Below are positions 40,069 to 58,267 of a stretch of 64,000 nt of DNA, one piece after another. How positions within the stretch are numbered: the stretch's first letter is position 1; each line of letters opens with the position of its first letter. The notes under the pieces were generated by a model that worked only from the letters and a program-made list of their open reading frames with translations, did no database searches and was not told the DNA's origin. The DNA comes from Flavobacteriaceae bacterium (GTDB lineage: Bacteria > Bacteroidota > Bacteroidia > Flavobacteriales > Flavobacteriaceae). The translations under genes were made by a program, and so were the position numbers. The stretch lies in assembly GCA_002746415.1 (NCBI GenBank), contig NVXD01000001.1, forward strand, positions 1 through 64,000, written 5' to 3'.

Positions 40069-40141
40069 CGCGGGATAGAGCAGTAGGTAGCTCGTCGGGC
40101 TCATAACCCGAAGGTCACTGGTTCGAGTCCAGTTCCCGCTA
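40069..40141 (+). tRNA. Initiator tRNA-fMet (anticodon CAT)
   Basis: Full cloverleaf of 73 nt. The acceptor strands CGCGGGA and TCCCGCT leave positions 1 and 72 unpaired (C/T), as is typical of initiator tRNAs, and the anticodon stem has three G:C pairs (CGGG-CTCATAA-CCCG). CAT anticodon. The 3' half is the attachment site of the genomic island: a 46-bp copy lies at 58,222. The first three-quarters of the gene are original; the island was inserted so that the full gene is kept. Confidence 0.96.
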
Positions 40142-40145
40142 CTAG
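40100..40145 (+). repeat. Left attachment site (attL), 46-bp direct repeat
   Basis: Identical in all 46 positions to 58222-58267, starting at the anticodon CTCAT and ending CTACTAG. It covers the anticodon, T-arm and acceptor 3' strand of tRNA-fMet. Confidence 0.95.
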
Positions 40146-40166
40146 GTTTCAAAACCATTAAAATCA

Positions 40167-40197
40167 ACGGTTTGTGTGTGCACAAACCGTTTTTTTA
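40167..40197 (+). terminator. Rho-independent terminator after tRNA-fMet
   Basis: ACGGTTTGTG (40167-40176) pairs with CACAAACCGT (40181-40190) around TGTG, then a run of T. It is element-borne (inside attL) and ends transcription from the tRNA promoter before the integrase. Confidence 0.9.
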
Positions 40198-40225
40198 TGT
40201 CCTCTATTTCCGTACTTTTACTAAA

Positions 40226-40254
40226 CGTATACGAAAACGCATACGATTTTAGTA
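40226..40254 (+). promoter_or_regulatory. Arm-type integrase site / integrase operator (left copy)
   Basis: CGTATAC-(8 nt)-ATACGATTTTAGTA. A sibling at 58151-58179 reads CGTATAC-(8 nt)-ATACGATTTTAATA, near the right end. It includes the inverted halves CGTATAC/GCATACG. The left copy ends at the chosen integrase start codon, so binding would also repress the integrase gene. Sites of this kind are known as arm sites in tyrosine recombinase systems; here it is an inference from the pair. Confidence 0.55.
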
Positions 40255-41540
40255 TGAAATTGAACTATTCCGAGCCAAAAATATACACAGGAGCGGTTGA
40301 TATTTATGATTGGCCAAAGCTTTCAAGAAAGCAACAAGAAGAAGTCCTTAAAAAGGACTGGTATGTGTATTATTCCTTTAGGGATCCTAAAACAGGGAAA
40401 CTTAAAAGGCAATCGCAAATTAAGGGAGGTGCAAATAGGTACAAAGACAAATCTAGCCGCTATCACATTTTAAAGCAATTGCAAAAGGCACTTTCCATTG
40501 TTTTGAAAGAAGGTTTTGACCCATACAAAGAGAATACCACGCTTATCGAATATTTAGAAAACCGCCTAAATTCTAAAAAAGAAGTTAAGCCCATACCTCA
40601 ATTTTCCAATGAAGAGATTGTTAAAATTGTACAAGAGAAAACCATTGGCATTACTGAGGCCTTTGAACTTGGATTAAAAACAAAAGAAAGTGTTTTAGGA
40701 AAAGACTCTTTCAAAAAATTCAAAAGTAGAATTGAACGCTTCAAAAAATGGTTACCCAAAAATGGTATTACATTAAAAGAAAACATTGACCTCATTGACA
40801 AAAAAGTTGTGATACGCTATCTAAATACTGTATTACACGATTCTAGCCCAAGAAACCGGAACAACACAAGAACAGACCTCGGTTCATTTTTTCAGACCTT
40901 AGAGGATAACGACCTCATTGAAAATAACTTTGTCAAAAAAATTAATGTATTACATTCTGTTCCAACGCGACATAAAACATACACTCCAGAGCATTTGAAA
41001 AATATTCATAATTATTTAAGACATGAACACCCTACTTTAAGGCTCTTTATTCTTTTCATTTCTTATAACTTTCTACGACCAATTGAGGTTTGTAGATTAA
41101 AAATAAAAGATATTGACCTAAGAGATAAAAAACTTTATGTAAAAGCAAAAAACCAACCTGTGAAAACGAAGATCATTCCTGATGTTTTATATAATCAGCT
41201 TCCTGATTTAACAGGTTTCAATCCAAATGACAACCTCTTTAATTTAGACAAAATAGGAGGTTGTTGGGAAATCGATGCATCCAATAAACGAGATTTTTAC
41301 ACTAAACAATTCAAGAAAGTAAAAGAATATTTTGGATTGGGTGCTGAATATGGCCTTTATAGTTTCCGCCACACTTTTATCACTAAATTGTACCAAGAAA
41401 TGGCTAAAAATGCGACCCCTTTCGAAGTAAAAAGCAAATTGAAATTAATAACCGGTCATTCGACAATGAAATCTTTAGAAAAGTATTTGCGAGATATTGA
41501 CGCTGAGCTTCCTGAAGACTATTCAAAATTATTGCAATAA
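40254..41540 (+). CDS. Tyrosine recombinase (island integrase)
   Basis: 428 aa from the ATG at 40254. An in-frame upstream ATG exists at 40176, but that stretch overlaps the tRNA terminator and the arm-type site, so I prefer the inner start. N-terminal arm-binding region, then a SAM-like core-binding domain and the C-terminal catalytic domain. The first catalytic Arg is in NFLRPIEVCRL (about 275), box II reads YSFRHTF (about 369-375, the usual first His is Tyr), GHSTM follows, and the nucleophilic Tyr is in LEKYL (about 411). It should insert and excise the island at tRNA-fMet. Immediately downstream is the small-protein/RHH operon. Confidence 0.92.
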   Translation: MKLNYSEPKIYTGAVDIYDWPKLSRKQQEEVLKKDWYVYYSFRDPKTGKLKRQSQIKGGANRYKDKSSRYHILKQLQKALSIVLKEGFDPYKENTTLIEYLENRLNSKKEVKPIPQFSNEEIVKIVQEKTIGITEAFELGLKTKESVLGKDSFKKFKSRIERFKKWLPKNGITLKENIDLIDKKVVIRYLNTVLHDSSPRNRNNTRTDLGSFFQTLEDNDLIENNFVKKINVLHSVPTRHKTYTPEHLKNIHNYLRHEHPTLRLFILFISYNFLRPIEVCRLKIKDIDLRDKKLYVKAKNQPVKTKIIPDVLYNQLPDLTGFNPNDNLFNLDKIGGCWEIDASNKRDFYTKQFKKVKEYFGLGAEYGLYSFRHTFITKLYQEMAKNATPFEVKSKLKLITGHSTMKSLEKYLRDIDAELPEDYSKLLQ

Positions 41541-41541
41541 A

Positions 41542-42474
41542 ATGAATTATACTCTTTTTGGTTCTATTAAAGACCCTTGTTTTATGAAAATGAATGAGGA
41601 TAATCAAAATAAACATCTTTTTGAAAGCTTAGTCTATATACATAATTATTCTATATCAACTCTTCTTAAACATGACGATGAAATTCCCGGTCTAGCTAGT
41701 ATAATACTGCCATTATCAAATGACAATTTAACCTATATTCCAACTGATGAACTGACTGATCAATTTTACAGCTTCATTTTAGAACAATATGAAGCTTTTT
41801 TAAAAGGATACCCTGTTATGTTTGATATTGAATTCAATAATGAGTGTTTTGGGGTTTCTGAGAAGAAAAAAAGAAAATTGGCTTTAATACAATTCAATGA
41901 AATCTTCTCAATGCTCTTTAAAAAAAATGCTCCAATTATTGACAATAGATTTAAAGCCTTAAAAAATCGAAAAGACCATTTAAAAGGGAGTTTGGCAACA
42001 CAACGGAACCTAGTCTTAGAATTTTTAATAGGTAACAGGGCTAAATTTAATCGAAAAACATTTGAAAATAATATTGTATTACAAGAAACAATAGAGTTTG
42101 AAGGAAAACTTGAAATATTGCTCCATTTAAATAATACATATAAATTTGAGTTGGATTATTATTTTGGTGAAACAGCGGCATTACTTGAAAAGTATAATAC
42201 TATTCAAAATCCTACTTTTGATTTTGTTATCTTCCTTTTTATCCACAATTGTATTACATCCATTGAAAAATATACCCATTCATATGTTGTAAGCTTATAT
42301 TTTTTCTTAAAAAAACATAAGCTTATTCAAGAGACTGCTGATAATTTTTGCACTATAATTAATGACCAATACGAGCTTCAAATTGGTGCAATTAAACTTT
42401 CAGACGACACCAATAAAGAACATGAAAAAAGAGTAAATTATTATGAAAATAAATGGAATGAATACAAGAAATAA
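41542..42474 (+). CDS. Hypothetical protein following the integrase
   Basis: 310 aa from the ATG at 41542, 1 bp after the integrase stop; an earlier in-frame ATG at 41497 lies inside the integrase and is unlikely. The protein is Lys/Glu/Phe-rich, mainly helical, with no signal peptide. I recognise no catalytic motif. Its position next to the integrase, as in mobile elements of Bacteroidota where RteC-like excision regulators occur, is the only hint. Weakly RteC-like at best. Confidence 0.7.
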   Translation: MNYTLFGSIKDPCFMKMNEDNQNKHLFESLVYIHNYSISTLLKHDDEIPGLASIILPLSNDNLTYIPTDELTDQFYSFILEQYEAFLKGYPVMFDIEFNNECFGVSEKKKRKLALIQFNEIFSMLFKKNAPIIDNRFKALKNRKDHLKGSLATQRNLVLEFLIGNRAKFNRKTFENNIVLQETIEFEGKLEILLHLNNTYKFELDYYFGETAALLEKYNTIQNPTFDFVIFLFIHNCITSIEKYTHSYVVSLYFFLKKHKLIQETADNFCTIINDQYELQIGAIKLSDDTNKEHEKRVNYYENKWNEYKK

Positions 42475-42492
42475 GAAGAGCATATTTCCTTT

Positions 42493-57517: not shown

Positions 57518-57526
57518 TCGGGGTAT

Positions 57527-57580
57527 AATTATACCTTTAAAAGTATACTTATTAATTACACCTTTAAAATATACTTGTAA
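57527..57580. repeat. Tandem 27-bp repeats upstream of the serine recombinase
   Basis: Units begin AATTATACCTTTAAAAGTATACTT (57527) and AATTACACCTTTAAAATATACTT (57554), 27 bp apart. Each unit contains dyad-like TATAC/GTATA and TTTAAA sequences. They lie 10 bp before the recombinase start, the place of resolvase subsites or an autoregulatory operator. Confidence 0.65.
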
Positions 57581-57605
57581 TTACTTATTAACTTAAAAAA
57601 CAGAT

Positions 57606-57625
57606 AGTTCAATAAAACGGTCGTT
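57606..57625 (-). repeat. Right copy of the 20-bp inverted repeat
   Basis: AGTTCAATAAAACGGTCGTT. Reverse complement of 53620-53639 with one mismatch. It lies 89 bp beyond the start of the serine recombinase gene. Confidence 0.6.
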
Positions 57626-57727
57626 TATGGAAACAAAAAAATGGACATTTAGTTAAGAGTCACGCTGCTACTTTCCTTAAAGAAAATAATAAATGAATAT
57701 GCAGAACTCCCTAGGTACTTCAAAATA

Positions 57728-57931
57728 ATGGAAGAAAATGCTCTGGTTAGAATTCTAAACCCTGATTCCTTCTATGATTTAATCTTAATTGCGCTAGGTG
57801 AAAAAATGAAAAAGACATGTAATCATATTTATTCAAATATAAAAGAAATCAATGATGATGATTCTGAACCATTTATTGCTGATTCCATAAACAAAATCGA
57901 CACCTTTTGTAGAATACAGGGGTTTTGTTAA
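57728..57931 (+). CDS. Possible small protein near the right end of the island
   Basis: 67 aa: MEENALVRILNPDSFYDLIL ... MKKTCNHIYSNIKEI ... DSINKIDTFCRIQGFC. Start and stop are normal, helical composition, no family recognised, and no clear promoter was found. It may be a gene fragment left by the assembly of the island end. Confidence 0.3.
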   Translation: MEENALVRILNPDSFYDLILIALGEKMKKTCNHIYSNIKEINDDDSEPFIADSINKIDTFCRIQGFC

Positions 57932-58150
57932 TTTGGAAAATCCATATTCAAAACAAGTTGTTATTCATTTTCACACCTTGATTGCCATGTTAAATTTCCA
58001 ATATAAAAGTAACACAGATTTGTACGAATCCTTTATTATGAAAGAAGATTTATAGGATTACCTTATAGTAGCACTTCTTTAATCTTTCTATGCTATGTTG
58101 TATTACAAATATTTTTTGTTGAAATTTGAAAGAATATAATTATTAATCAG
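57932..58150. other. Non-coding right margin of the island
   Basis: No gene or strong structure was seen here apart from A/T-rich DNA. The arm-type site (58151-58179) and attR (58222-58267) lie to its right. Confidence 0.5.
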
Positions 58151-58179
58151 CGTATACATTTCCGAATACGATTTTAATA
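58151..58179 (+). promoter_or_regulatory. Arm-type integrase site (right copy)
   Basis: CGTATAC-(8 nt)-ATACGATTTTAATA. Matches the left copy at 40226-40254 in both flanking blocks with the same spacing. It lies 43 bp from attR. Binding sites on both ends of an element are expected for the integrase. Confidence 0.5.
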
Positions 58180-58221
58180 GAATAAGCAGGAAAATAGGCC
58201 TAATATGAGTTATTTATTAAA

Positions 58222-58267
58222 CTCATAACCCGAAGGTCACTGGTTCGAGTCCAGTTCCCGCTACTAG
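58222..58267 (+). repeat. Right attachment site (attR)
   Basis: 46-bp exact copy of the tRNA-fMet segment 40100-40145. It lacks the 5' half and so is not a functional tRNA. It marks the right end of the island. Confidence 0.95.

Follow-up and report, generated by a model that had tools for sequence, protein, structure and literature searches.

What lies between two exact copies of part of an initiator tRNA gene, and how did it come to be there? The question is raised by the first 64,000 nucleotides of contig NVXD01000001.1 (GenBank assembly GCA_002746415.1, Flavobacteriaceae bacterium), hereafter the window, in which an earlier note made from the sequence alone had proposed a genomic island of 18.1 kb inserted in tRNA-fMet. 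We conclude, with a probability of roughly 0.93, that the interval is a site-specific integrative element at this tRNA gene. The copies of the repeat, CTCATAACCCG...CTACTAG, lie at 40100-40145 and 58222-58267, 18,122 bp apart from start to start, and are identical at 46 of 46 bases, as the note had claimed; because the second-longest direct repeat of the region is only 42 nt long at 71% identity, the exact 46-mer is not due to chance. A single complete tRNA-Met(CAT) gene was identified on the + strand, at 40069-40142 by ARAGORN and at 40069-40141 by the Rfam tRNA model (RF00005, 66.2 bits), and its GGG:CCC anticodon stem, read from the sequence, marks it as the initiator. The left copy of the repeat (attL core, + strand), which runs from the anticodon loop to just beyond the tRNA 3' end, is the 3' part of this gene, while the right copy (attR core, + strand) is the displaced 3' part of the original tRNA. 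Searched at the DNA level, the whole draft genome (36 contigs, 96.75% complete) contains the full tRNA-fMet once and the 46-bp fragment one more time, and the gene at 40069 is the only initiator tRNA gene found in it. The locus has the layout by which Islander-type islands are defined: an intact tRNA and a displaced fragment in the same orientation flank the element, and a tyrosine integrase gene lies within the interval. In the Rfam scan the tRNA alone passed; matches to mir-190 and RT-3 fell under their gathering scores and were taken as chance.

The gene beside the left copy is the tyrosine recombinase that had been described there (PF00589, E 1.1e-6; phrog_1 integrase, E 1.9e-25). The left end is ordered tRNA, hairpin and T-run (40166-40196), and then immediately an ATG at 40197 in the integrase frame. 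This ATG, and not the downstream ATG at 40254, is most likely the start, giving an integrase that is probably 447 amino acids long (40197-41540, + strand), because the arrangement of a T-run followed by an ATG open into the integrase was seen in all 28 elements examined. The reading frame is intact. In the family alignment R, K, YxxRH and H are present in 53 of 53 rows and the final Y in 51, residues with catalytic roles in tyrosine recombinases. The box is usually HxxRH in tyrosine recombinases; its first position is a tyrosine in every one of the 53 rows. A sequence search of the PDB with the integrase gave no match, and among 50,697 phage records the only match at E ≤ 1e-5 was the integrase of Leeuwenhoekiella phage Arctus_1 (PP314354.1), with 31.3% identity over 92% of the 428-aa query.

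Each copy of the core is followed by a terminator. The one behind the intact gene (40166-40196, + strand; 11-bp stem and T-run, centroid -14.8 kcal/mol, fold z -3.7) is a replacement carried by the island. The one 3' of the right copy (58266-58303, + strand; -18.4 kcal/mol, z -4.7), assigned to the host tRNA-fMet from its fold and from empty-site alignments, resembles the DNA after intact fMet genes in some relatives, which agrees with the proposal that the original terminator had moved to the far end. To produce this arrangement, the integrase would have recombined the tRNA-fMet gene with attP, the attachment site of the element, in which right arm, core, replacement terminator and left arm follow in that order. 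Because strand exchange would have fallen at the anticodon-loop side, the chromosome would have retained the 5' half of its gene (40069-40099), the element contributing a matching 3' half together with a terminator of its own and moving what had been the 3' part and terminator of the gene 18.1 kb away. A single-copy, essential initiator tRNA would tolerate such an insertion since the element restores its 3' half and terminator. The claim that the tRNA is rebuilt at the left end therefore stands in so far as the full tRNA is there, with the correction that this end also has a terminator of the island's own. That insertion in an essential gene is notable does not stand, since this is ordinary in tRNA islands, for which the cited part of the Islander catalogue gives regeneration of the target as the rule (PMC4383910).

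The repeat search recovered a further pair of short motifs at each end: CGTATACG-N4-CGCATACG at 40226-40245 (+ strand), within the integrase coding sequence, and CGTATACA-N4-CGAATACG at 58151-58170 (+ strand), which is followed by 51 bases and then the core. Arm letters in relatives are GTACAC, GTAAAC, GAACAC and GCATAC. The two ends of an element are of one class in 27 of 28 cases, with a tie at the right end of G219 counted as a mismatch (we cite relatives by our own handles); when the labels were permuted 100,000 times, relatedness being ignored, the mean was 9.4 and the observed value was never reached. In six of the 28 pairs (G001, G094, G073, G131, G192 and G115) the ends are on different contigs and the pairing was inferred; leaving these out, the match is 21 of 22. 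Such matched end repeats are probably the arm sites of the integrase. TAnnTTTG, the Bacteroidota-type promoter consensus, is found in the right end, directed toward the core, in 14 of the 28 elements, the rate in letter-shuffled sequence being 8.7%. The window's element has no exact copy on the + strand of its right end. In the excised circle a right-end motif would read into the integrase, which for the window's element is a guess. A sigma-70 promoter scan was uninformative (90 found, 93.3 in shuffles).

Related genera provided empty sites, the comparison that the earlier note had put forward. G033, G019 and G027 each have an intact tRNA-fMet beside Era-AGCS genes as in the window, and a terminator comes directly behind the tRNA. 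Beyond it no arm-like repeat pair was found in these three (one chance pair of 8-mers lies farther on in G027), and each has one core copy at 28 or more of 46 bases in 20 kb and one core match in its whole genome. G033, with a tRNA-Arg gene directly after the site, is the clearest empty site, and G031 also looks empty. G007 and G014 were rejected as empty sites since an element of another type lies just after the terminator; in G007 a cut-off core copy follows 5.6 kb on. When the tRNA and core were joined to the DNA right of 58267 and aligned to 44 relative loci, two genomes being entered twice, 29 of the 44 rows aligned beyond the junction to position 109 or farther.

Conservation of the DNA on the left of the site is widespread. 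A close AGCS transporter occurs in 81 of 397 family genomes. Thirty such loci were taken, the window's included, of which 29 have an fMet core adjacent, and a window-type integrase is present in five of these 29 (again with the window's) within the stretches compared. The genus comparison consists of two genomes. In the other one, G001, this tRNA is occupied by a different island, which seems to be divided between two contigs and whose attR is followed by another left end lacking an integrase. A second type of element, with repeats like GTACAACATAGGTACAACA or GTACAGAATAGGTACAGAATA after the hairpin, uses the same fMet site and was seen at L100, L101, L105, L110 and L122 (G128) and in G007, G014, G018, G032 and G117. 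A terminator look-alike at C26:64557, considered as the mark of a second island right of 58268, is only a similar hairpin. In G030 (L061-L062) Era and Der lie beyond attR and not beside the intact tRNA, and in G003 (L081) they are beside a core, with no intact tRNA within the 20 kb read; these arrangements suggest rearrangement at the fMet site. Mangrovimonas sp. TPBH4 (NZ_LBIO01000037.1) holds two alike copies of the element (L053 and L057) near both contig ends and in opposite orientation, which could be an assembly effect or a true inverted pair.

Could the two copies instead be the remnant of a tandem duplication of the fMet gene, without mobile DNA? Tandem fMet cores do occur elsewhere (three in G034 with a spacing of about 170 bp, two in G300 that are 207 bp apart), and a 14-base stretch like the tRNA 5' end lies upstream of the window's gene. 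However, the right copy has no 5' half and sits beside an arm pair that matches the left end, 18 kb and an integrase separate the copies, empty sites exist, and related islands have like ends and unlike cargo. We therefore rejected this explanation as extremely improbable. The upstream stretch (39966-39979, about 100 bp ahead of the real gene) has 13 of 14 bases as in 40069-40082 and is preceded closely by a promoter-like motif, TATCTTTG, at 39948-39955; it may be the leftover of a second fMet copy. A decayed fMet copy was also seen upstream in G197.

The position at which an integrative element would exchange strands with tRNA-fMet was sought by comparing attL with attR in 28 pairs. Leftward, identity ends exactly at the anticodon loop in 21 pairs and is longer by one base in four, by three in G138, by four in G153 and by six in G131. 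Rightward, no mismatch was found before core position 44 in 27 pairs, the tRNA ending at 42, and the exception, G073, has a mismatch at 25. Allele differences within the core mark three additional pairs, at position 18 in G128 and at 20 in G063 and G117. Because the tRNA 5' half in G128 fits the attR allele, the 3' half at attL is most likely element-borne, and from this the exchange would be placed between about tRNA position 32 and 51, which is consistent with the anticodon-loop side. The cited part of the Islander paper names an anticodon-loop attachment subsite (PMC4383910), and a review of archaeal recombinases agrees, in the part cited, with exchange there (PMC8371274).

Of 199 family genomes, 39 hold a relative of the integrase at E ≤ 1e-20, and these relatives make up an element family that sits mostly at two methionine tRNA genes. 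In the tree of 53 rows, 33 are at initiator tRNA-Met (fMet), 17 at elongator tRNA-Met (eMet), two at Leu and one at Lys; the fMet label denotes at least 41 of 46 core matches upstream and includes tandem elements at a displaced fragment. Left out of the tree were L057 (a copy of L053), L049, L149, L113 and L114 (odd start, partial, or a repeat of L146; all four have a Met tRNA upstream, 448 bases away in L049), L148 (no tRNA found within 700 bases), and L103 and L090 (no integrase match). The target labels require 10 changes for fMet and 8 for eMet, at least 9 and at least 7 of them on well-supported branches, and a single eMet clade was rejected (p-AU 8e-10). The six rows of the window's well-supported clade are all fMet. 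Between the two targets, the nearest relatives are G094 (fMet) and G073 (eMet); their integrases are 94.8% identical and 2.36 kb of their DNA is 95.4% identical, and the 8 kb of G073 compared gave no other long match in the same orientation. Their DNA is alike from the built-in terminator onward, the tRNA half and leader being different; the right ends, on other contigs, are alike too, with nearly the same arm sites.

Because integrases that are 94.8% identical sit at the initiator and at the elongator, the portion of the attachment site that belongs to the tRNA appears to be an interchangeable module. The sequence TCATAACCCGRAGGTC is common to both methionine tRNA genes. We lean slightly towards the view that the family integrase would recognise TCATAACCCGRAGGTC, that an exchangeable cassette of the tRNA 3' half and the leader up to the terminator would let one lineage serve both tRNAs and switch between them, and that insertion may replace the host 3' half with the allele of the element, so that the initiator tRNA would be partly shaped by mobile DNA. 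A cassette of this kind together with an integrase of dual specificity would explain the G094 and G073 pattern. Recombination between co-resident elements is a possible route for a cassette swap, because several genomes (G064, G073, G115, G122, G132 and G138) hold both kinds of element. A separate oddity of the elongator tRNA-Met, its unusual T-arm, was considered as a product of the islands and this was rejected, as it is present with no window-type integrase nearby and also in the window's own genome. The usual T-loop is TTCRANN; the native elongator tRNA-Met at L185 (own genome, C5:317478-317497) and those at L160, L161 and L167 have the T-arm GGGGG-ATCGTGC-CCCCC, and no relative of the window's integrase was found downstream of these four tRNAs in the stretches compared.

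Behind attL the island carries a module of five genes: the integrase, orf2, a ribbon-helix-helix (RHH) protein, an AAA/DnaB-like ATPase and a DUF6371 primase-like protein. orf2 (41542-42474, + strand) has no assigned function and no Pfam or NCBIfam match; it follows the integrase in most of the family, with blastp matches in seven of eight other islands compared (the exception being G030), and its best match to viral open reading frames (ORFs), E 0.0023 over a short stretch, was not accepted as homology. The RHH protein (42607-43113, + strand; weak HicB and RHH_1 matches below cut-off) is a candidate excision or regulatory factor. It is followed by the RepA/DnaB-like AAA ATPase (43110-44165, + strand; PF13481 1.3e-19, PF03796 1.2e-9, phrog_19), a candidate replication helicase, and by a protein with a zinc ribbon and DUF6371 (44419-45276, + strand; PF19898 1.1e-61, PF21957 3.5e-24, PG0870_Nterm) that probably acts as a primase. 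The module is whole in G152 and G176 and lacks a detected orf2 or RHH protein in G191, G219, G115, G030 and Mangrovimonas. In G030, G152, G191, G176 and G219 the integrase, AAA and primase genes are beside attL, the second core is 18.6-21.2 kb away and the cargo is different; orf2 is present in four of these five, not in G030, and the RHH protein in G030, G152 and G176. G+C content is 0.26-0.32 in the window's island at 41-46 and 50-58 kb, yet 0.33-0.38 at 45-51 kb; the adjacent flanks have 0.34-0.39, and stretches at 11-14 kb fall to 0.31. The lower G+C in parts of the island and the different cargo between like ends in related islands support the earlier claim that the boundary defines the accessory genes of this stretch, and it does so to the base.

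The element can probably still move. Its RHH protein may help excision, and the AAA and primase-like proteins would then replicate the excised circle. A relic, which entered by integration and can no longer excise, seems doubtful: no attP junction was seen in the assembled sequence, the right end is without the exact TAnnTTTG present in 14 of 28 elements, and G001 shows end decay in its integrase-less left end after attR, but the window's integrase frame is intact with conserved active-site residues, its repeats are identical at 46 of 46 bases, and both arm pairs are retained. No relaxase was found among the 19 island ORFs scanned against Pfam, with ORFs shorter than 80 aa and antisense ORFs outside the scan, and no head, capsid, portal, terminase or packaging match was found among the island ORFs (19 against Pfam, 10 against PHROGs).

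These results bear on two accounts of transfer. An island resembling a phage satellite, which would excise, be copied by its own AAA protein and primase and be packaged with the aid of a helper phage, is possible, if short of probable. Relatives of the AAA protein were detected on nine viral contigs, and on six of these a primase relative as well; seven of the nine are 5.9-9.7 kb long, a crude test indicated direct terminal repeats in four, an integrase is also encoded on L188 and a head maturation protease and a small terminase on L192, and no relaxase turned up among the 19 island ORFs scanned. Set against this are the lack of any capsid, portal or terminase match, the absence of relatives of the window's integrase from the viral contigs in a pattern search, and from the nine in a search with the 53-integrase profile, and the occurrence of DUF6371 proteins on Bacteroidales plasmids as well. 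The viral contigs with AAA relatives (L187-L195), of which L188 also encodes excisionase-like proteins, look like phage satellites or small phages themselves. The other account, an integrative mobilisable element moved in trans by a conjugative element, is rather improbable; relatives of the primase are on 11 Bacteroidales plasmids, four of them typed as conjugative, but the 19 ORFs include no Pfam relaxase and orf2 matches nothing in Pfam or NCBIfam.

Several points weigh against an integrative element at tRNA-fMet as we describe it. The island is known only in integrated, assembled form and no circle was observed, and cell-to-cell transfer is unexplained because no relaxase or packaging gene was found. 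Empty sites come from related genera only and none from the same species. At least nine of the 29 rows that align across the junction (G007, G014, G018, G032, L100, L101, L105, L110 and L122) hold another element with its own hairpin, and likeness of terminators discriminates poorly: for G027 the attL query gave 86.3% over 1-113 and the empty-site query 88.5%. The pairs with split alleles are not of the window's element, those in G128 and G117 belonging to another type and that in G063 having a distant integrase and a right core followed by a further element. Relatedness among the elements inflates the agreement in arm class, and in six of the 28 cases the pairing spans contigs.

The remaining genes of the island, all on the - strand, are accessory cargo: toxin-antitoxin genes, defence candidates, secreted proteins and a resolvase. 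A ParDE-type toxin-antitoxin pair (45393-45930; PF05016, with TIGR02606 below its cut-off) is followed by an FAD-dependent oxidoreductase (46389-48062; PF12831 4.8e-116) with a lipoprotein-like N-terminus by eye, a secreted-looking protein (48229-50280; PKD PF18911 and a weak M23 match) and two ORFs from the ORF list left without a function by the Pfam scan (50407-50706 and 50815-51636). A PIN-like protein (51827-52342; PIN by eye and a weak PADLOC match, PDC-S70 1.5e-8) is encoded directly beside an Xre/ImmA protein (52355-53449; PADLOC RmrA 8.1e-46, PF06114, PF01381). RmrA belongs to RosmerTA according to the cited part of its description (PMC10440598), and the two genes at 51827-53449 are a candidate RosmerTA-type system with a PIN-like partner. 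Beyond them lie a small ORF and a DUF2971 protein (53759-54879; PF11185, PADLOC PDC-S31), three function-unassigned ORFs with hydrophobic segments by eye (55258-56849), and a serine recombinase with a resolvase/invertase N-terminal domain (56846-57517; PF00239 2e-40, phrog_125). The cargo of eight other islands, three of them in part, was compared as 58 proteins in two sets with Pfam and, for the first 40, with PADLOC; cargo ORFs crossing stretch ends and all 38 ORFs of G001 were excluded. The matches listed, which cover the best 25 of 37 Pfam families for the first set and the best 25 of 154 PADLOC families, include type I restriction-modification (N6_Mtase in 4 of 40 and 1 of 18 proteins), SRAP, AbiV, Fic and helicases; no relaxase, terminase or capsid family is among them.

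With its two targets, the family is a natural test of integrase specificity. The G128 locus, which holds another type of element, is evidence that a host initiator tRNA can have its 3' half altered by insertion, and its pair of alleles makes an influence of mobile DNA on translation initiation testable.

In open-licence texts, searched by title and start of abstract, we found no description of the window's island, its family or a tRNA-3'-half cassette. Among known systems, phage-inducible chromosomal island (PICI) satellites have an integrase, a small DNA-binding protein, a helicase/primase-like module, defence genes and a size similar to that of the window's island. The likeness is one of description, and in contrast to these satellites no packaging-redirecting genes were found in the window's island. 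In ICEclc of Pseudomonas, coordinate 102,729 is reportedly at the far end of the element. The integrase transcript of ICEclc has its promoter, Pcirc, at this coordinate (PMC2892462), and a motif resembling a promoter and directed toward the core likewise stands in the right end of half of the window's relatives; ICEclc, however, is conjugative, whereas no relaxase was found in the window's island and the motif is not present there in exact form. In Sinorhizobium meliloti, phage-related sequences contain, according to the cited part of one report, nine tRNA-fMet genes and eight tRNA-Met genes, of which one lies within a prophage that has integrated in gene 045, an elongator Met (PMC11476347). 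Methionine tRNA genes are involved there as in the window's family, but those elements bring extra tRNA genes, are phage-like and belong to another lineage. A 50K island of Riemerella anatipestifer with a RAP44-type integrase, the integration of which was tested by its authors (PMC9745183), is of the same broad lineage as the window's and shares the position 3' of a tRNA with the integrase at the end; unlike the window's, it has an unrelated 19-bp repeat, a length of 50 kb and phage-derived content. The Arctus_1 integrase is distant from the window's and is borne by a 42.7-kb phage. A further known system is that of the islands in the Islander catalogue, in which CAT tRNAs are sorted into isoleucine, initiator and elongator classes and, beside regeneration of the target tRNA as the rule, tandem arrays are known and target switching is frequent (PMC4383910). 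The part of that paper cited here gives no account of the window's family, of near-identical elements at both methionine tRNAs or of arm sites inside the integrase gene, but the window's island shares with its islands the intact tDNA, the displaced 3' fragment, the internal tyrosine integrase and the A subsite. The kind of element is thus already known: a tRNA-splitting and tRNA-regenerating island with an anticodon subsite and target switching.

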